Positions 31,811 through 43,636 of a DNA stretch of 43,636 nt are shown here, piece by piece. The notes beneath the pieces are model-generated. The model had not been told where the DNA came from. It saw only the letters and a list, made by a program, of their open reading frames with translations, and did not search any database. The first letter of the stretch is position 1. Each line of letters starts with the position of its first letter. A program made the position numbers and the translations under genes. Source of the DNA: Chthoniobacterales bacterium (GTDB taxonomy: Bacteria; Verrucomicrobiota; Verrucomicrobiia; Chthoniobacterales; JAATET01); the NCBI GenBank assembly GCA_036569045.1, contig DATCRI010000046.1, positions 1 to 43,636 of the forward strand. The letters are read 5' to 3'.

Positions 31811-31928
31811 CTGTTCAAACAATACGGATCGCGCCACGAATCGGCCATCAGGGACTTGCCCGATTGCGGCCCGCAGGCGGCGTTTCTAGGGTGTGGCCCC
31901 GCATGGAAAACTCTTTCGTTCTCGCTCG

Positions 31929-35363
<3,435 letters not shown>

Positions 35364-35364
35364 G

Positions 35365-36192
35365 ATGCCCCACAAGACCGAAGACATCGAGATCCGGCTC
35401 CTGCTCGAGGCCATCTTCCAGCGTTATCACTACGACTTTCGTGGGTATTCGCTGGCCTCGATCAAGCGACGCCTGAAGCAGGCCAGGGAACGGTTCGGCT
35501 GCTCGAGCATCTCGATCCTTCAGGACAAGGTCCTGCACGAACCCGCCATCGTCCCGGAACTGCTCTCGTTCCTTACCGTGCAGGTGAGCGAACTCTTCCG
35601 CGATCCGACCTATTTTCAGGCGATCCGCGAAAAGGTCATCCCGCACCTTCGCACCTATCCGTCGCTGAAGGTCTGGATCGCTGGCTGCAGCAGCGGCGAG
35701 GAGCTCTACTCCTTCGCCATTCTCTTCCGCGAGGAAGGCCTCGAGGAAAAGACGATGTTCTACGCCACCGACATCAATCCCGAGGCTCTTCGCAGGGCCC
35801 GGGCCGGCGTTTACAACCTCGATCGCATCCGTCTCTTTACCGAAAACCACCAAAAATCCGGCGGCCGATCCTCGCTCTCCGACTACTACACCGCCGCCTA
35901 CGGCAGCGCGAAATTCGACCGCACCCTGCGCACCCGCACCGTCTTTTCCGACCACAGCCTCGTCAGCGACGCCGTCTTCGGCGAGATCCACCTCATCTCC
36001 TGTCGGAACGTGCTCATCTACTTCGACCGAGAGCTTCAGGACCGCGCCATCGGCCTGTTCAAGGACTCGCTCATCCGCAAGGGCTTCCTGGGCCTTGGCT
36101 CGAAGGAAAGCCTCAGCTTCTCGGCGCACACCGCCGCGTTTGCGGAGTTCTCGCGCGAAGAAAAAATCTACCAGAGGCGCGGCGACCAATGA
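35365..36192 (+). CDS. cheR: CheR-type protein-glutamate methyltransferase
   Basis: A 275-residue SAM-dependent methyltransferase that in chemotaxis methylates receptor glutamates. The N-terminal helical part (LLEAIFQRYHYDFRGYS, IKRRL) and the catalytic domain (VWIAGCSSGEELYSFAI, ATDINPEALRRARAGVY, HLISCRNVLIYFD) are complete. It starts one base after the hybrid kinase stop. No chemoreceptor, CheA or CheW gene is present, so its target here is probably a component of the kinase system. Confidence 0.93.
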   Translation: MPHKTEDIEIRLLLEAIFQRYHYDFRGYSLASIKRRLKQARERFGCSSISILQDKVLHEPAIVPELLSFLTVQVSELFRDPTYFQAIREKVIPHLRTYPSLKVWIAGCSSGEELYSFAILFREEGLEEKTMFYATDINPEALRRARAGVYNLDRIRLFTENHQKSGGRSSLSDYYTAAYGSAKFDRTLRTRTVFSDHSLVSDAVFGEIHLISCRNVLIYFDRELQDRAIGLFKDSLIRKGFLGLGSKESLSFSAHTAAFAEFSREEKIYQRRGDQ

Positions 36193-36773
36193 GTTCCCCG
36201 GGATTCGAGGCCGTTGCCATCGGAGGGTCCGCGGGATCGCTGAAAGCCCTCTCGCAGATCCTTCCCGCGCTGCCATCGAGTTTTCCCCTGGCGATCCTGC
36301 TCGTCGTGCATCTCCCGCCCGACAAGCCCAGCGTGCTGGCCAATGTGCTGCAGGAAAAATGCGCCGTGGCCGTCCGCGAGGCGCGGGACAAGGAACCGAT
36401 CCTGCCCGGCACCGTTTATCTCGCGCCGCCCGACTACCACCTGCTGGTCGAATCGAGTCGCCACCTTTCGCTGTCCTACGACGAGCCGCAGCTCTTCTCG
36501 CGGCCGTCGATCGACGTCCTGTTCGAATCCGCGGCCGATGTTTACGGCCCCGCCCTGCTCGGCATCGTCCTGAGCGGGGCCAACAACGACGGCGCCCTTG
36601 GCCTGAAGACCGTCGTCGCCGAAGGCGGCCTCGGCCTTGTTCAATCCCCCGAGGGGGCCTGCGCCCCCGCCATGCCCCTCGCCGCTCTGGAGGAATGCCG
36701 CGAAGCCCGCAGTCTCCGTCCGGAGGAAATTGCCACATTCCTGAGAAATCTTTGTCGCCATGAGCAGTCCTGA
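36189..36773 (+). CDS. cheB: CheB-type methylesterase domain without receiver
   Basis: A 194-residue protein that consists only of the CheB methylesterase domain. The catalytic triad is readable: Ser14 in GGSAGS, His41 in VVHLPP and Asp134 in LSGANNDGA. The receiver domain of chemotaxis CheB is absent, so activity cannot be switched by its own phosphorylation. It overlaps cheR by 4 bases (ATGA) and the next kinase by 14 bases. It should reverse the CheR reaction within the same system. Confidence 0.93.
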   Translation: MSSPGFEAVAIGGSAGSLKALSQILPALPSSFPLAILLVVHLPPDKPSVLANVLQEKCAVAVREARDKEPILPGTVYLAPPDYHLLVESSRHLSLSYDEPQLFSRPSIDVLFESAADVYGPALLGIVLSGANNDGALGLKTVVAEGGLGLVQSPEGACAPAMPLAALEECREARSLRPEEIATFLRNLCRHEQS

Positions 36774-38304
36774 AACCGATCCGGTCTACTTCCTCCTGGT
36801 CGACGACCTCGAGGGGAACCTCCTTTCGCTGGAGGGCCTCCTGCGACGCGATGGCCTCGTCCTGCTGAAGGCCAGCTCCGGGACAGAAGCTCTCGAGCTC
36901 CTGCTCCGCTACGACGTCGCCCTCGCCATTCTCGATGTCCAGATGCCCGGCATGGATGGCTTCGAGCTTGCCGAACTTATGCGCGGCACCGAGCGCACCC
37001 GCCGCGTGCCCATCATCTTTCTCACCGCCGGCAGCGCCGACCGGCAGCGCCGTTTCCGCGGCTACGAGGCCGGCGCCGTCGACTTCCTCCACAAGCCAAT
37101 CGAGCCCGACATTCTCCGCAGCAAGGCCGATGTCTTCTTCGAGCTCTATCTCCAGCGGCGCCAGCTCGCGCGCCAGCGAGACACCCTCGCGCAGGCCGAC
37201 AAACGCAAGGACGAATTCCTCGCCGTGCTGGCCCACGAGCTTCGCAATCCCCTCACGCCGATCCGCTACGGCCTCGACATGATGCAGCTCGCACCCGGTC
37301 GTCCCGTGCCCGAGGACATCCGGGCCATGATGGATCGCCAGCTCGTTCATCTCGTTCGCCTCATCGACGACCTGCTCGACGTCTCGCGCATCGGTCGCGG
37401 CAAGATCGACCTCCGCCGCACCCACGTCACGCTGCAATCGATGCTGCAGGCCGCGATGGAGGCCAGCCGTCCCCTCGTCGAATCCAAACGCCACGTCCTG
37501 AATCGTGACATTCCCGAGTCCGAACTCTGGCTGAACGCCGACTCCACGCGCATCGCCCAGGTTGTCAGCAATCTCCTCAACAACGCCGCCAAATACACCG
37601 CCGAGGGCGGCACGATCGCGCTCTCAGCCCGTGAAGTCGATGGCCAGGCGGTCGTTTCGGTGACGGACAACGGCGTCGGCATCCCGGCCAGGATGCTGCC
37701 CGAGATTTTCGACCTCTTCACGCAGGTCGAAAACCGCGGCGAGCTTTCCAAGGGGGGACTCGGGATCGGCCTCGCCCTCGCCCGCCAGCTCGTCGAACTG
37801 CACGGCGGCACCATCGAAGGCCACAGCGCCGGCGAGAATCAGGGAAGCACCTTCACCGTTCGGCTGCCCCTCGAGAAGGGCGCGCAATCTCCCGCCCCGA
37901 CCACGTCACCCGCCAAGATCGACCCGGCGGCTCCCCTCCGCGTTCTCGTCGTGGACGACAACGTCTCCTCGGCAGAAACCACCCGACAAATTCTGTCGAT
38001 GGTCGGCCACGAAGTCGCTCTCGCCCACGATGGCCCCACCGCCATCGATCTCGCGCGCGAATTCGACCCCGCCGTGATCCTCCTCGATATCGGAATGCCC
38101 GGAATGAGCGGCTACGACGTCTGTCGCGAGCTGCGACAGGATCCCGCCTTCGCCCGCACGCTGATGATTGCCCAGACCGGCTGGGGTCAGGAACGCGACC
38201 GCCAGCGCACGCGGGATGCGGGTTTCGACCACCACCTCACGAAGCCGGTCAACTTCCAGGAACTCTCCGCCCTGCTCTCGAAGGCGCCCGCCCGGGCTCT
38301 TTGA
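36760..38304 (+). CDS. Hybrid histidine kinase: REC-HisKA-HATPase-REC
   Basis: A 514-residue soluble kinase. The N-terminal receiver has Asp59 in AILDVQMPGMDG and Lys112 in HKPIEPD. HisKA has His159 in AVLAHELRNPLTPIRYG, and the HATPase has N box VSNLLNNAAKYTAEGG, G1 VTDNGVGIP and G2 LGIGLALARQLVELHGG, all intact. A C-terminal receiver ends the protein (LLDIGMPGMSG, HHLTKPVN). The N-terminal receiver makes it a likely acceptor from the upstream kinase, and it is the last gene of this operon. It converges on the minus-strand operon, with 31 bases between. Confidence 0.93.
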   Translation: MSSPETDPVYFLLVDDLEGNLLSLEGLLRRDGLVLLKASSGTEALELLLRYDVALAILDVQMPGMDGFELAELMRGTERTRRVPIIFLTAGSADRQRRFRGYEAGAVDFLHKPIEPDILRSKADVFFELYLQRRQLARQRDTLAQADKRKDEFLAVLAHELRNPLTPIRYGLDMMQLAPGRPVPEDIRAMMDRQLVHLVRLIDDLLDVSRIGRGKIDLRRTHVTLQSMLQAAMEASRPLVESKRHVLNRDIPESELWLNADSTRIAQVVSNLLNNAAKYTAEGGTIALSAREVDGQAVVSVTDNGVGIPARMLPEIFDLFTQVENRGELSKGGLGIGLALARQLVELHGGTIEGHSAGENQGSTFTVRLPLEKGAQSPAPTTSPAKIDPAAPLRVLVVDDNVSSAETTRQILSMVGHEVALAHDGPTAIDLAREFDPAVILLDIGMPGMSGYDVCRELRQDPAFARTLMIAQTGWGQERDRQRTRDAGFDHHLTKPVNFQELSALLSKAPARAL

Positions 38305-38335: not shown

Positions 38336-39439
38336 TCAGCGGATCACCTGCACGGGAACGTGCATGACCAGCTCGAGTTCCTCGTCCGGATTGAAGTTGC
38401 CCTCGATGGTGGCGTGAGCGTATTCGGCGATCTTGCGGCTCGTCGCCAGCTCGAGGCCCAGACTCATCGCCGTGGAAGCCCCGCCGATCTGCGAAAAATT
38501 GTAAGGCTGGAAGAGTTCATCGATTCCCCGGCCGGCAATGGAATCGCGGCGGATGCCCGTGCCGACAATAGACACGTGAAGATTCGGCCCATCGCGCATT
38601 TCAATGCGGGTCGCAATGCGAATCCGGTTCGAGCGCTGCGAGGCAAGCCGGGCGAGCTTCCGCACGATCATGAAAATCGCGTCGGACGGTCCGACAACGC
38701 GGGCGGCCGAGGAGAGGCGGTCGTCGAGCTCCACCGTCACGTTCCGCTCCGCGAGCGCATCGATCATTGGCTGGAGCAGAACGCTCGGCGCAAAGACCTT
38801 TTCCACACCCGCCGCGGCGAGATGCGAGGCCGCGATGTAGTCGACGATCTCCATGAGGATGTCATGCAGATGCGAACCGGACTCCTTGACGTGCTGCGCC
38901 CACGAGGCCTGTTCCGGATTCTCGACGCCTTTGGCGAGCAACTCGGAGAAACCCATGATCACGTTCAACGGCGTGTTGAACTCGTGGCAGAGCAGGGCAA
39001 AGAAACTGTCGTGCACGCCCATCAGACGCTGCTGAAGGTCCTGTTTGCGCGTATTCTCCTGATCGTAAATCTCGAATCCTCGCGAGATGACCTTTTTCAG
39101 CTGGGTCCGCTCGAACGGCTTCGTGAGATAATTGAACGCCCCCAGATTCAGGGCGGAAATGGCGGACTCCGTGCTTTCGAAGGCCGTCAGGATGATGATG
39201 TTCTGGCTCTCGCGAATCTTCTTCAGCCGCTGAAGGGTCTCGATTCCGGAAAGGCCCTCCATGCAAAGGTCGAGAATGACCACCGGGAAGGCTTCCCGCA
39301 TCGACGCTTCGATCGCCTCGGCGCCACTGCCCACGGCGGTGACGTCGTATTCATCCTGAAGGATGTAGCTGAGAGTCTGCCGCACGAGCGGTTCATCATC
39401 CACCACGAGCAGCTTGCGAGGAGGGGCCGAGGAAATCAT
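38336..39439 (-). CDS. Receiver fused to a degenerate histidine kinase core
   Basis: A 367-residue protein. Residues 8-125 are a receiver with Asp57 in VILDLCMEGLSG and Lys107 in YLTKPFE. Residues 140-210 are a HisKA-like helical pair that keeps His152 (LLCHEFNTPLNVIMGFSELL). The HATPase-like C-terminal domain has lost the ATP contacts: the N-box position reads IFMIVRKLARLASQR with no Asn, and the G1 box reads IVGTGI instead of DxGxG. Some late shape (SLGLELATSRKIAEYAHATIEG) remains. It could act as a phosphotransfer hub or a scaffold instead of an autokinase. It starts 9 bases downstream of the next gene's stop. Confidence 0.88.
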   Translation of the reverse strand: MISSAPPRKLLVVDDEPLVRQTLSYILQDEYDVTAVGSGAEAIEASMREAFPVVILDLCMEGLSGIETLQRLKKIRESQNIIILTAFESTESAISALNLGAFNYLTKPFERTQLKKVISRGFEIYDQENTRKQDLQQRLMGVHDSFFALLCHEFNTPLNVIMGFSELLAKGVENPEQASWAQHVKESGSHLHDILMEIVDYIAASHLAAAGVEKVFAPSVLLQPMIDALAERNVTVELDDRLSSAARVVGPSDAIFMIVRKLARLASQRSNRIRIATRIEMRDGPNLHVSIVGTGIRRDSIAGRGIDELFQPYNFSQIGGASTAMSLGLELATSRKIAEYAHATIEGNFNPDEELELVMHVPVQVIR

Positions 39440-39448
39440 GGCGGCAGG

Positions 39449-40636
39449 TTAAGACGGTGCGGAATTGAAGAGAACTCTTACCAATTCTTCGTTCGCGTCG
39501 CCAGAGGATTGCGGCTGGCTCGGAAGAAAAAATGTGAAAACCAGGCCCATATCCTCCTTAACCCGGGCACTCAGCGTGCCGCCGTGATGTCGGGCGATGA
39601 AATAGCTCGATGCCAGAAAGACCCCGAATTCACGGGGATTCCCACCCCGCAGGTTGAAGGGATGCAGCAGGCTGTCCGGCGTGGTGTTCGAGGAAATCGG
39701 CGCAAAGTCCTCGAATTCGACCGTCACGCCCAGCGGCTCGTCGTCACCACGATGCGGCTGGATGCGAACCTTCACGAGGCTGTCGCTCGGAAGGGACACA
39801 ACTTCCTCGGCGATCATGAACCGGAAGAGCTTTTCCATGTGCATTGGCACGCCGAACACCGTCGGGGCGCCGTCCGCAACCTCGACTTCGAGGCGCAACC
39901 CCTTTTCCTTGCGCAGGATTTCCGAGTTCGCGATCGAGTTCGCGAGAAGCTCCGCCAGATTCAGCGAACAAAAATCCGCGGCATTAGGCGGCATGCTGAT
40001 CTGGGCGAGGTCCTTCAAGGTGTTCGCGATCTCGTGAATGTGCGCATTCACGCTGCGCAGAAACTCATTGGACAGCGGTGCGCGAGTCTCGCGTTCGTCG
40101 AGGAGCTGGTCGATAAGCAGGGTGACCGGGCAGAGAGCGTTGTGAACGTAATGCCCGATCTTCGCCGCGATCAGCGCGACGTCGTAAGTGCGATTTTCGA
40201 GGATCTTGGCCCGCAGGTCGTCGAGCTTTTGCTCGAGGAGACGGTGATCACTGATCTGGCTCTCGTAGTGATCGAGCGCGCGAACGAGCGTCTCCTCGAG
40301 GTCGTTCAGCTGCCAGGGCTTCGAGACGAACGAGTAAATCGCGCCTGTGTTGATCGCCTCGATGAGGAGATCGAGCTCGGAATAGGCCGTCGTCAGAATG
40401 CGAACGGTATGCGGATATTGCTTCCGGACGAGCTTCAACAGGTCGACACCCGTGGATTCCGGCATGCGCTGGTCGGTAACGATCACCCCGATTTCCTCGT
40501 GATGACGTTCCAGTAACCGCAGCGCTTCCTCCGTGGAAGCCGCGGAAAACACGGTGAATCGTGGAGCAAAGGCCCTGGAAAAATACTTCAAAGCCATGGC
40601 CTCGTCGTCCACCAGAAGCACACCTTTTCGTCCCAT
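39449..40636 (-). CDS. Receiver with a pseudo-kinase C-terminal half
   Basis: A 395-residue protein starting MGRKGVLLVDDE. The receiver (1-122) is of the RpfG-like sort, with Asp55 in VTDQRMPESTG and Lys106 in FVSKPWQ. A helical linker leads to a DHp-like segment KIGHYVHNALCPVTLL, where His162 keeps the phospho-His position but the next Glu is Tyr. The C-terminal part ends with a HATPase-like FGVFLASSYFIARHHGGTLSA but has no N box or DxGxG box, so it cannot be expected to bind ATP. Its receiver is strikingly similar to that of the next gene, pointing to tandem duplication. Confidence 0.87.
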   Translation of the reverse strand: MGRKGVLLVDDEAMALKYFSRAFAPRFTVFSAASTEEALRLLERHHEEIGVIVTDQRMPESTGVDLLKLVRKQYPHTVRILTTAYSELDLLIEAINTGAIYSFVSKPWQLNDLEETLVRALDHYESQISDHRLLEQKLDDLRAKILENRTYDVALIAAKIGHYVHNALCPVTLLIDQLLDERETRAPLSNEFLRSVNAHIHEIANTLKDLAQISMPPNAADFCSLNLAELLANSIANSEILRKEKGLRLEVEVADGAPTVFGVPMHMEKLFRFMIAEEVVSLPSDSLVKVRIQPHRGDDEPLGVTVEFEDFAPISSNTTPDSLLHPFNLRGGNPREFGVFLASSYFIARHHGGTLSARVKEDMGLVFTFFLPSQPQSSGDANEELVRVLFNSAPS

Positions 40637-40667
40637 ATCGCCCTTATCTCGCACGATCTCGCAGCGC

Positions 40668-41747
40668 TTACAACCGCGAGATGTCCGCAGCGGAAAATTT
40701 TTCCGCCAATACGTGGAGGGCATCCTCCGGACCGTCCGCCGCACCGGCGGGGAAGAAGCCGACGGAAAAATCGCCACCCGTGGAAGCGAGGGTTATCTCC
40801 AGGGAACCGCCGCCGCGAGCGAGGGCGAGAAGAGCCTGGAAGACATGGAGCGACACGGCCGGAGTTTCCCGCTCGATGAACAGGCCAAACAGCTGCCGCG
40901 AGAAAGCCCCCGCGTCGGCGGCTTTCCCGGTTGCGTCCATGCGGATCCTTATCGCGCCATCGGCGCCGGTTTCCGTCGTCACGCTTTCCGACGAGAGGCC
41001 CAACGTCCCGGCGAGAGCGGCGACCAGCGATTCCACCACCGTGGATGCCTCTTCGGCGCCGGCGCGGAAACCTTCCAGCGCATCGAGCGACGCGGCGGCG
41101 TTGCGGTATTCATCTTCGAGCAGTCCGATCACCTCGAACTGGCGCGGGCTGAAGGTGAGGTTGCCGCCGAGCAGCGGATTCAGCTCGAGGGGTATGGCCT
41201 TGACGAAACTGACCAGCGCCCGGCGAAAGGTCGGCTGCTCCTCGACGGGAAGCTGGCGTCCCCAAAGGAGGAGCCACTTCAGGCGGTCGCTGCACACGAT
41301 GCGCTGGAGCGTGGTCATCTTCACCGCCAGCAATTCGTTGCGCTCGGTGAGGACGCGGAAATAATCGGACGCTCGCTGGAGGACCATGCCGAGGTCGGCG
41401 ATCTCCCAGGGCTTCACGACGTATTGATAAATGTAACCGGTGTTCACCGCCTCGATGGCCTCGGCCAGGTCGGTGTAGGCCGTCGTGAGAATGCGCACGA
41501 TCCGCGGGTATCGGTCCCGCACCATGCCGAGAAATTGCGAGCCGTGCATGTTCGGCATGCGCTGGTCGGAAAGCACGATGCCGATATTGGCGGATTCTCG
41601 CCGCAGCACTTCGAGGCCTTCCTCGGCGGAGCTGGCGGTGAAGATCTGGTATTTGGGAGAAAACGCCAACCGGAAATACTTCAGCGCCTTTTCTTCGTCG
41701 TCGACATAGAGAACGCCGCAGGTGGGTGTCGGATCGGGGTTTAGCAT
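40668..41747 (-). CDS. Receiver with an uncharacterised or strongly degenerate output domain
   Basis: A 359-residue protein. The receiver (about 8-125) has Asp61 in VLSDQRMPNMHG, the VRILTTAYTDL strand and Lys112 in VVKPWE, clearly paralogous to the receiver of the gene at 39449. The C-terminal 230 residues are mostly helical. The position matching the phospho-His segment reads IVCSDRLKWLLLWG with no His, and the end (FQALLALARGGGSLEITLASTGG, then FSVGFFP) keeps the outline of a HATPase tail without catalytic boxes. It overlaps the upstream kinase stop by 7 bases (41741-41747). Alternative: the C-terminal half is a genuine novel output domain. Confidence 0.85.
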   Translation of the reverse strand: MLNPDPTPTCGVLYVDDEEKALKYFRLAFSPKYQIFTASSAEEGLEVLRRESANIGIVLSDQRMPNMHGSQFLGMVRDRYPRIVRILTTAYTDLAEAIEAVNTGYIYQYVVKPWEIADLGMVLQRASDYFRVLTERNELLAVKMTTLQRIVCSDRLKWLLLWGRQLPVEEQPTFRRALVSFVKAIPLELNPLLGGNLTFSPRQFEVIGLLEDEYRNAAASLDALEGFRAGAEEASTVVESLVAALAGTLGLSSESVTTETGADGAIRIRMDATGKAADAGAFSRQLFGLFIERETPAVSLHVFQALLALARGGGSLEITLASTGGDFSVGFFPAGAADGPEDALHVLAEKFSAADISRL

Positions 41748-43636
41748 AGTTTTGGAATGCGTTCGGTGATGGGCAGGGTGATGGTAAAGACGGCGCCGCC
41801 GGAGCTGCGATTGCTCACGCCAATCGAGCCTCCGTGGGATTCCACGATGGTATGGCAAATGCTGAGGCCCATGCCCATGCCGGCGCCCACGTCGCGGGTG
41901 GTGAAGAACGCCTCGAACACGCGGCCAATGATGTCCGGCGGAATTCCCGGGCCGTTGTCGGCCACCTCGATCGTCGCGATTTCCTCCTCGACCGTCACCT
42001 TCACCGAAATGATCTTCACCGCGTTTGCGGGCATTTCCCCGAGCGCCTTGGCGGCGTTCACCAGCAGGTTGATGAACAGGTGAGTGAGCTGCGTCCGCTG
42101 GCCCTTCACCATGATGTCCTCCGGGATCTCGCTCTCGATCCGGACGCTTTCCAGCTCGCGAGCCGTCAATTTGCAGGCGTCGCGGAAGATGCCGTCGATC
42201 GAGAAGGTCGTAAGCTGCCCCTGCTTTTCCGGGTAGGCGAAGCTCTTGAGGTTCGTGATGACGTCGCGAATGCGGCCCATGCCCTCCTCGATGTCGGCGA
42301 CGAGCTCCTGCATGTCGGGGCTGAGCGCGGCGCGGTTCTGCTGCGCAATGGAAACGGCGGTGAGCGTGTAGTTGAGCGGGTTGTTGATCTCGTGCAACAG
42401 GCCGGCAGAGAGCGAGCCGATGGCGTTCATCTTCTCGCTCTGGATGAGCATGAGCTCGGTGCGTTGCAGCTTCTCGACCGTGGCGCTCAGCTCCTCGTTG
42501 CGGTCTCGCAGGTCCCGCTGCAGACGCGCCGCGCGCAGCAGATTCGCCACCCGCGTCTTCACCTCCACGCTGCTGAACGGCTTCGTGAGGAAGTCGTCCG
42601 CGCCGGAGCCGAGCGCCTCGAGCTTCGATTTCTCGTCGATGCGCGCGGTGAGCAGCATGATCTTGAGGTCGCGATTGGCCGGGTTCTCCCGCAGCTCTCG
42701 GCAGACGGCAAGACCATCCTTCACCGGCATCATCCAATCGAGCAGCACCACCGCGGGCTCGTGCTCGGCGACGAGCGCCGCGACATTCCCGCCATGGCGC
42801 GTCTGAACCACGCGGTATTCCTCGGAGAGCAGCGCGACGACGAATTGCCGCATGTCGGTCTCGTCATCCGCGACAAGCACCACCTCGCGACCGTGTCCGC
42901 GTTCGGGCAGAGCGGTGTCCGGCTCGTCCGCATAGGCGCGGAGCGTGCGATCCGCCGAGCGAAAGGCCTTCTCGAATGGCTCCACGAACTCCGCCTCGCC
43001 CCCCGCGGAGGGAGCCGGTGGCGCCACGGGCTCCGTGGCGGCGGGCAGGGTGATCCGGAAGGTGGAGCCGTGGCCAACAATGCTCTCGACCTCGATGCGG
43101 CCGCCGTGCTGCTCGACGAGTTCGCGAACGAGCGCGAGACCGATTCCGACGCCCTGCACCTGGTTCGACGCGTTGCTGCGGACCTGGTGGAAGCGGTCGA
43201 AGACCTTGTCGAGATCCTCGGGAGGGATGCCGACGCCGGTGTCTTCGACCTCGAGGATCGTCGCCGCATCGCCAGCCCGCCAGCGCGCCGTGATGGAGCC
43301 GCCGGGTGGCGTGTATTTGATGGCGTTCGTCAGCAGGTTCACGAGGACCTTCTCGAGACGGGTGGGATCGGCCGTCACCGGCAGCGTGAGATCACCCTCC
43401 TCGGTTTTGATGCGGAGTTGCTTCGACAAACCAAGGTGACGCACGGACTCGACGATGCCCTTCACGTGCGGACCAAGGGCAAACGTTTCCTTGCGCAGAA
43501 GATCGGCGCCCTGGTCGATGCGGGTGAGATCGAGAAGATCGTTGATGAGCTTGAGCAACCGCAGGCTGTTCCGGTGAATCAGGATGAGCGCCTCGTGGGT
43601 GCGAGCGTCGAGGCGGTCGTCCTTTGCGAGCAACGA
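41741..43636 (-). CDS. Histidine kinase with two catalytic cores around a receiver (5' end outside window)
   Basis: At least 631 residues are visible and the N-terminus lies beyond the right edge. From the edge: the end of a HisKA (NSLRLLKLINDLLDLTRID), a complete HATPase (LVNLLTNAIKYTPPGG, EDTGVGI, GVGIGLALVRELVEQHGG), a linker, and a receiver (VLLDWMMPVKDG, FLTKPFS). A coiled coil follows, then a second HisKA (SAGLLHEINNPLNYTL) and a second HATPase (FINLLVNAAKALGE, ADNGPGIP, GMGMGLSICHTIVESHGG). Both ATPase cores look active. The second core is of the HPK4-like HEINNP type. It leads the minus-strand operon of receiver proteins and is likely their phosphate source. Confidence 0.92.
   Translation of the reverse strand, partial: SLLAKDDRLDARTHEALILIHRNSLRLLKLINDLLDLTRIDQGADLLRKETFALGPHVKGIVESVRHLGLSKQLRIKTEEGDLTLPVTADPTRLEKVLVNLLTNAIKYTPPGGSITARWRAGDAATILEVEDTGVGIPPEDLDKVFDRFHQVRSNASNQVQGVGIGLALVRELVEQHGGRIEVESIVGHGSTFRITLPAATEPVAPPAPSAGGEAEFVEPFEKAFRSADRTLRAYADEPDTALPERGHGREVVLVADDETDMRQFVVALLSEEYRVVQTRHGGNVAALVAEHEPAVVLLDWMMPVKDGLAVCRELRENPANRDLKIMLLTARIDEKSKLEALGSGADDFLTKPFSSVEVKTRVANLLRAARLQRDLRDRNEELSATVEKLQRTELMLIQSEKMNAIGSLSAGLLHEINNPLNYTLTAVSIAQQNRAALSPDMQELVADIEEGMGRIRDVITNLKSFAYPEKQGQLTTFSIDGIFRDACKLTARELESVRIESEIPEDIMVKGQRTQLTHLFINLLVNAAKALGEMPANAVKIISVKVTVEEEIATIEVADNGPGIPPDIIGRVFEAFFTTRDVGAGMGMGLSICHTIVESHGGSIGVSNRSSGGAVFTITLPITERIPKLC

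Follow-up and report, generated by a model that had tools for sequence, protein, structure and literature searches.

A probable Phc-type quorum-sensing operon with pseudo-kinase outputs in a Chthoniobacterales bacterium

The Phc quorum-sensing system of Ralstonia has a 3-hydroxy fatty acid methyl ester as its signal and the LysR-type regulator PhcA as its target. It has been studied in Ralstonia and its kin, where the published operon runs in the order phcB, phcS, phcR and phcQ (PMC8578825). PhcR was described as the prototypical Rec-HK of Ralstonia in a study that also presents LvrC of Leptospira, a Rec-Bergerat protein, as an anti-sigma factor (PMC13269768). Binding of PhcQ to PhcA, with stabilisation of the latter, has been reported (PMC13320629), and the substitution R154C in Ralstonia PhcQ behaves like a phcQ deletion, while the C-terminal part of the protein was described as uncharacterised (PMC6989110). 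Phc quorum sensing and Rec-kinases are thus already known; new, so far as the open-access literature tells, are a polyketide synthase (PKS)-linked form of the system, its spread to Verrucomicrobiota and a pseudo-kinase reading of PhcQ. A search of that literature for PhcB together with Verrucomicrobia, Planctomycetes or PKS gave nothing relevant except ralsolamycin in Ralstonia.

The window analysed here, a stretch of 43,636 nucleotides from a Chthoniobacterales bacterium, is a complete contig (G000:C46) that cuts the operon at position 43636. Four genes, A to D, form a minus-strand run in which A and B overlap by 7 bases, B and C are separated by 31 bases and C and D by 9 bases (Table 1), confirming the coordinates of an initial annotation of this DNA. 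Gene A is truncated by the contig end, and its core-1 His box, SHELRTPLA, is encoded on contig C90 (C90:1-703), the first 700 bases of which hold A's start as far as this box. Comparison with a relative (G002) suggests that only about 20-25 bases are absent between C90 and C46. The operon extends further upstream: 5′ of A lie a gene for a phcB-like methyltransferase and one for a reducing type I PKS of one module, and the uncut order in relatives is PKS-phcB-A-B-C-D. Since the contig end removed these genes from the window, the Phc operon is recognisable only from the upstream genes. Scans for promoters and terminators yielded no more than scans of shuffled sequences. On the plus strand, a convergent cluster at 31893-38304 contains a CHASE3-GAF hybrid kinase with three receivers as well as CheR-like and CheB-like genes (assigned by eye), and its receiver-kinase-receiver gene ends 31 bases from D.

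Table 1. Features of the operon in the window and on contig C90
Feature	Coordinates	Strand	Description
Gene A	41741-43636	-	PhcS-like hybrid histidine kinase; 631 of ~870 aa in window, 5′ end on contig C90
A receiver	42548-42880	-	Between the two kinase cores; Pfam Response_reg, residues 253-363
A core-2 DHp	42233-42415	-	Contains HEINNP His box; Pfam HisKA, residues 408-468
Gene B	40668-41747	-	PhcQ-group; receiver and predicted pseudo-kinase half, no His, shortened ATPase-like part; 359 aa
B R155	41283-41285	-	Same column as PhcQ R154; Arg in 37/41 aligned rows
Gene C	39449-40636	-	PhcQ-group paralogue, 395 aa; receiver and complete kinase fold that retains the DHp His but has lost the ATP boxes
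C conserved His	40151-40153	-	At DHp position (HYVHN); 6/6 orthologues
Gene D	38336-39439	-	Receiver, HisKA and degenerate ATPase half; lineage apart from B/C; 367 aa
D invariant His	38984-38986	-	Phospho-acceptor type (HEFNTPL); 6/6 orthologues
phcB-like methyltransferase gene	C90:700-2094	-	Directly before A; 75% to its G002 counterpart
One-module reducing type I PKS gene	C90:2120-8524	-	5′ of the phcB-like gene

The part of A in the window comprises the ATPase of core 1, a receiver and a complete core 2, with Pfam HATPase_c found in two stretches (best at residues 90-200) besides the Response_reg and HisKA matches of Table 1. Of the two intact kinase cores initially attributed to this protein, the second was thus found complete, with a His box present in 31 of 32 homologues, and the first is incomplete in the window, its His box lying on C90. 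With the C90 part included, A consists of a sensor resembling MASE8 (match with E 1e-5 for the orthologue in G002), core 1, the receiver and core 2, with both His boxes; full-length orthologues have 869-873 aa and are 62-72% identical. The sensor matches the sensor of PhcS with E 8.9e-61, and of A's two cores the second is the closer to the PhcS core (E 3.6e-105, 43%, vs. 1.8e-39 for core 1), suggesting that A is built like PhcS but has a further kinase core and a receiver placed between the sensor and the PhcS-type core. Judged from sequence, A is a membrane PhcS-like hybrid kinase.

A methyltransferase gene (~465 aa) and a type I PKS gene likewise stand immediately 5′ of A in four relatives (G001, G002, G041 and G047). 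The methyltransferase family shows 42% identity over 457 residues to a plasmid gene of Paraburkholderia graminis, after which come a kinase gene and two genes for receivers; PhcB-like genes sited before kinase and receiver genes in Paraburkholderia, Cupriavidus and Ralstonia are 42-44% identical to it, and the G002 gene is 42% identical to one PhcB-like gene (L028). The Cupriavidus and Ralstonia loci encode a methyltransferase, a kinase of ~440 aa, a receiver-kinase of ~370 aa and a receiver protein of ~335 aa, matching phcB, phcS, phcR and phcQ in order and domain content (PMC8578825), and they are named phcBSRQ here by this published order and these domains rather than via named Ralstonia solanacearum sequences. 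NCBIfam contains no model matching PhcB and none specific to PhcQ. These results indicate that the four genes are probably the signal-sensing and output part of a Phc-type quorum-sensing operon with pseudo-kinase outputs, and the layout, at first taken for a relay unlike any described, would be a variant of the Phc operon.

The PKS contains the domains KS-AT-DH-ER-KR-ACP, once each. Among the best 80 of at least 565 loci with phcB relatives, a PKS precedes phcB in 11, and it does so in the genome of the window as well; all are from Verrucomicrobiota. The PKS-linked PhcB proteins form a single clade within this phylum (12/12, support 100/99), outside which 36 others fall. Whether a methylated PKS product serves as the signal is evenly balanced, and a signal of this kind would most likely be a methyl-esterified acyl or polyketide chain; the PKS product could also be co-regulated yet unrelated to the signal. 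The adjacency of PKS, methyltransferase and kinase on one strand would also fit a two-component system that controls a PKS product tailored by the PhcB-like enzyme, with no population-density signal involved. However, sets of phcB, kinase and PhcQ persist without a PKS in groups of the Planctomycetota and of the Delta-, Alpha-, Gamma- and Betaproteobacteria, which makes phcB and the kinase the core of these sets, in line with the established quorum-sensing system, and such control of a product is considered improbable. Under the quorum-sensing reading, the constant pairing of PKS and phcB would point to a new signal, for which a relative such as Spartobacteria bacterium LR76 could be examined. 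In Pedosphaera (L067 13711-21039), a large PKS-like gene is convergent to phcB-A rather than in front of it. In a further locus (L053 4095-9962 and 11401-16832), the PKS, A and receiver genes appear split into several frames, possibly by sequencing indels in this metagenome assembly.

All four receivers possess the acidic pair, the phospho-Asp, the Thr/Ser and the Lys, in agreement with the intact receivers initially noted at the start of B, C and D. In a receiver tree of 122 columns only, with weak inner branches, the receivers of B and C group with the PhcR and PhcQ receivers in a single clade (support 99/98), and those of A and D lie outside it. In the second halves of B and C, Pfam HATPase_c is absent (B) or far below threshold (C, E 0.13), and loose patterns for the N, G1 and G2 boxes of ATP binding were matched in 0, 0 and 1 of 6 orthologues of B and in 0, 0 and 0 of 6 orthologues of C. 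The G1 box is found in 36/36 PhcR rows, vs. 0/12 in B and C and 0/61 in the other rows of the PhcQ group, the latter being 14 planctomycete/other, 5 Opitutaceae and 42 PhcQ candidates gathered by a loose rule.

The relationship of these halves to kinases was investigated by profile comparison and structure models. The C-terminal half of C matches core 2 of A with E 3e-17, and the model of C folds as REC-DHp-CA, with the Rec-HK LvrB (8vc9) as best Foldseek match (E 9.4e-19) and a Z of 19.0 to ZraS (rmsd 3.8 over 204 residues). For the C-terminal half of B, hhalign gave E 6.3e-10 to a planctomycete/delta PhcQ-like set and 3e-7 to PhcQ. Direct hhalign comparison of the same half with the kinase core revealed no similarity (E 0.04-0.5), and the planctomycete/delta set itself matches core 2 of A with E 5.4e-16; thus, B is linked to the kinase fold through intermediate sets. 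In addition, the B/PhcQ family profile reaches the solved kinase ZraS across the C-terminal half (E 1.1e-7). In the B model (pLDDT 87.5), the DHp-like helices are long and the ATPase-like part is shortened, with missing strands that, from the secondary structure, may correspond to a lost lid region; when the whole model was submitted to Foldseek and VIA-align, the matches were taken up by the receiver domain. Taken together, the comparisons identify the C-terminal half of B and C as a predicted kinase-like pseudo-core without ATP boxes. More widely, the C-terminal half of PhcQ may be a pseudo-kinase as well, which is put forward as part of a joint reading that falls a little short of an even call (see below). 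Residue 154 of Ralstonia pickettii PhcQ is the arginine aligned to R155 of B, and its identification with the mutated R154 presumes equal numbering in R. solanacearum; a pseudo-kinase half would offer a testable reason for the inactivation by R154C.

The motifs quoted in the initial annotation for A (HEINNP), C (HYVHNA) and D (HEFNTP) are all present. CSDRLK, proposed there as the His-box position of B with its His lost, was ruled out by the family alignment, which places it at a conserved D-R pair some 11 residues ahead of the box; at the true position, B has no His. With CSDRLK misplaced, and with B and C inside the Phc receiver clade and D outside it, the proposed step-by-step change of the His box does not hold.

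D differs from B and C in its descent. It matches Pfam HisKA (E 1.7e-9), with HATPase_c far below threshold (E 0.16), and loose patterns for its N, G1 and G2 boxes were matched in 1, 1 and 0 of 6 orthologues. The nearest kinase sets by hhalign are the active REC-HK-REC proteins of Opitutaceae loci, encoded downstream of A (E 4.9e-16), followed by PhcR (4.6e-10). Its receiver, however, lies outside the Phc clade, suggesting either a separate recruit or a strongly diverged protein. The repeated duplication of one gene, proposed as the origin of the whole set, does not hold for D, whose receiver belongs to another lineage in the receiver tree. The loss of ATP boxes from the kinase-like halves of B, C and D was confirmed, and the relatedness of these halves to kinases also stood, with the kinase fold of the C model, the HMM-HMM intermediates of B and the HisKA domain of D. 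The more general proposal of phosphate-accepting receivers with ATP-dead halves beside an active hybrid kinase is likewise supported at the level of sequence. Near the PKS in LR76, a NarL-type regulator gene (L043 2235-2945) encodes a protein whose closest match in the genome of the window is the D receiver (42%), with no full-length match in that genome; this regulator is possibly an output partner or the source of D's receiver.

The A-B-C-D set was found in the genome of the window and in G001 (= L044), G002, G041, G047 (= L043), L042, which may be of the same lineage as G041, L045 and L046. The gene order initially proposed for a survey of relatives is therefore conserved, and intact sets span Chthoniobacterales to Puniceicoccaceae. 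Relatives of phcB are far more widespread than Ralstonia and its kin: at least 565 were found in a scan of 84,980 species genomes (one genome per species), the best 80 belonging to Verrucomicrobiota, Planctomycetota, Deltaproteobacteria/Myxococcota and Alpha-, Beta- and Gammaproteobacteria. Of 388 evenly drawn Verrucomicrobiota genomes, 22 encode PhcB. One planctomycete locus (L075 7709-8872 and 13986-15077) has two PhcQ-like genes flanking phcB-A, one per side.

A decayed copy of the set occurs in G003, a genome of the same genus in which PhcB is absent and C and D are fused out of frame; C runs out of frame into the tail of D, with most of D and most of the second half of C deleted (L034 10686-11550). 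This copy looks like a natural decay of the system, and the combined loss of PhcB and breakage of C and D would be expected if the receivers serve the signal, although it is one case. The broken copy, together with the lost ATP boxes, might also suggest that B, C and D are decaying genes without function throughout, but the intact sets from Chthoniobacterales to Puniceicoccaceae and the invariant His in C and D largely refute this explanation, which is hardly credible.

A mechanism can be proposed in which the PKS and the PhcB-like methyltransferase would produce the signal, and A would sense it and phosphorylate the receivers of the three other proteins. B and C would then act as PhcQ-type outputs, in which receiver phosphorylation would alter the dimer of the ATP-dead, kinase-shaped half, and this half would serve as a protein-binding module, as PhcQ does with PhcA in Ralstonia. 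C and D could pass phosphate onward via the DHp His in the manner of ChpT or Spo0B, or could take part in dephosphorylation. The direction of phosphate flow and the output partner in this scheme are presumptive, and the details of the phosphate flow are possible rather than probable. An alternative is that B, C and D serve as scaffolds or gates, binding to A and modulating its kinase, instead of acting as Phc-type outputs. In its favour, ATP-dead kinase-like halves stand beside an active kinase, and less signal is made by a PhcQ mutant of Ralstonia, showing that proteins of the PhcQ type are able to feed back on the system (PMC6989110). However, the receivers are complete and conserved, and the homologue PhcQ is reported to bind and stabilise PhcA (PMC13320629), making the alternative unlikely. 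The Phc reading in its full form, i.e., a Verrucomicrobiota Phc system with a dedicated type I PKS, a PhcB-methylated signal of an undescribed class, three receivers with ATP-dead, kinase-shaped output halves as readout and a pseudo-kinase C-terminal half in PhcQ, is tentative, with a chance of being right slightly below even.

In comparison with known systems, the loss of ATP-binding boxes indicates that B, C and D are not kinases of the usual kind. The histidine phosphotransferases ChpT and Spo0B have a DHp His beside an ATPase-like domain without ATP boxes and, to our knowledge, no receiver of their own. C and D resemble them in keeping the DHp His (6/6 orthologues each) next to a CA domain without ATP boxes, whereas B has no His; unlike ChpT and Spo0B, C and D carry their own receiver, and their phosphotransfer role is a predicted one. 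B, C and D resemble LvrC in joining a receiver to a kinase-like ATPase fold acting downstream, but have DHp-like helices, and no anti-sigma link was seen at this locus. The REC-DHp-CA fold of C is shared with Rec-controlled histidine kinases, e.g., LvrB of Leptospira and PhcR (PMC13269768), from which B, C and D differ in lacking the ATP-binding boxes. As in Ralstonia phcBSRQ (PMC8578825, PMC6989110), a methyltransferase gene is followed by genes for a membrane sensor kinase and receiver proteins, the PhcS sensor and core being homologous to A and PhcQ to B and C, with a common Arg column. An active PhcR (REC and kinase with ATP boxes) is absent after A, where D is nearest but has lost the boxes, and the set is thus not a canonical phcBSRQ set. 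Unlike Ralstonia Phc, it has a type I PKS ahead of phcB, an extra kinase core and receiver in A, and two PhcQ-group proteins plus D.
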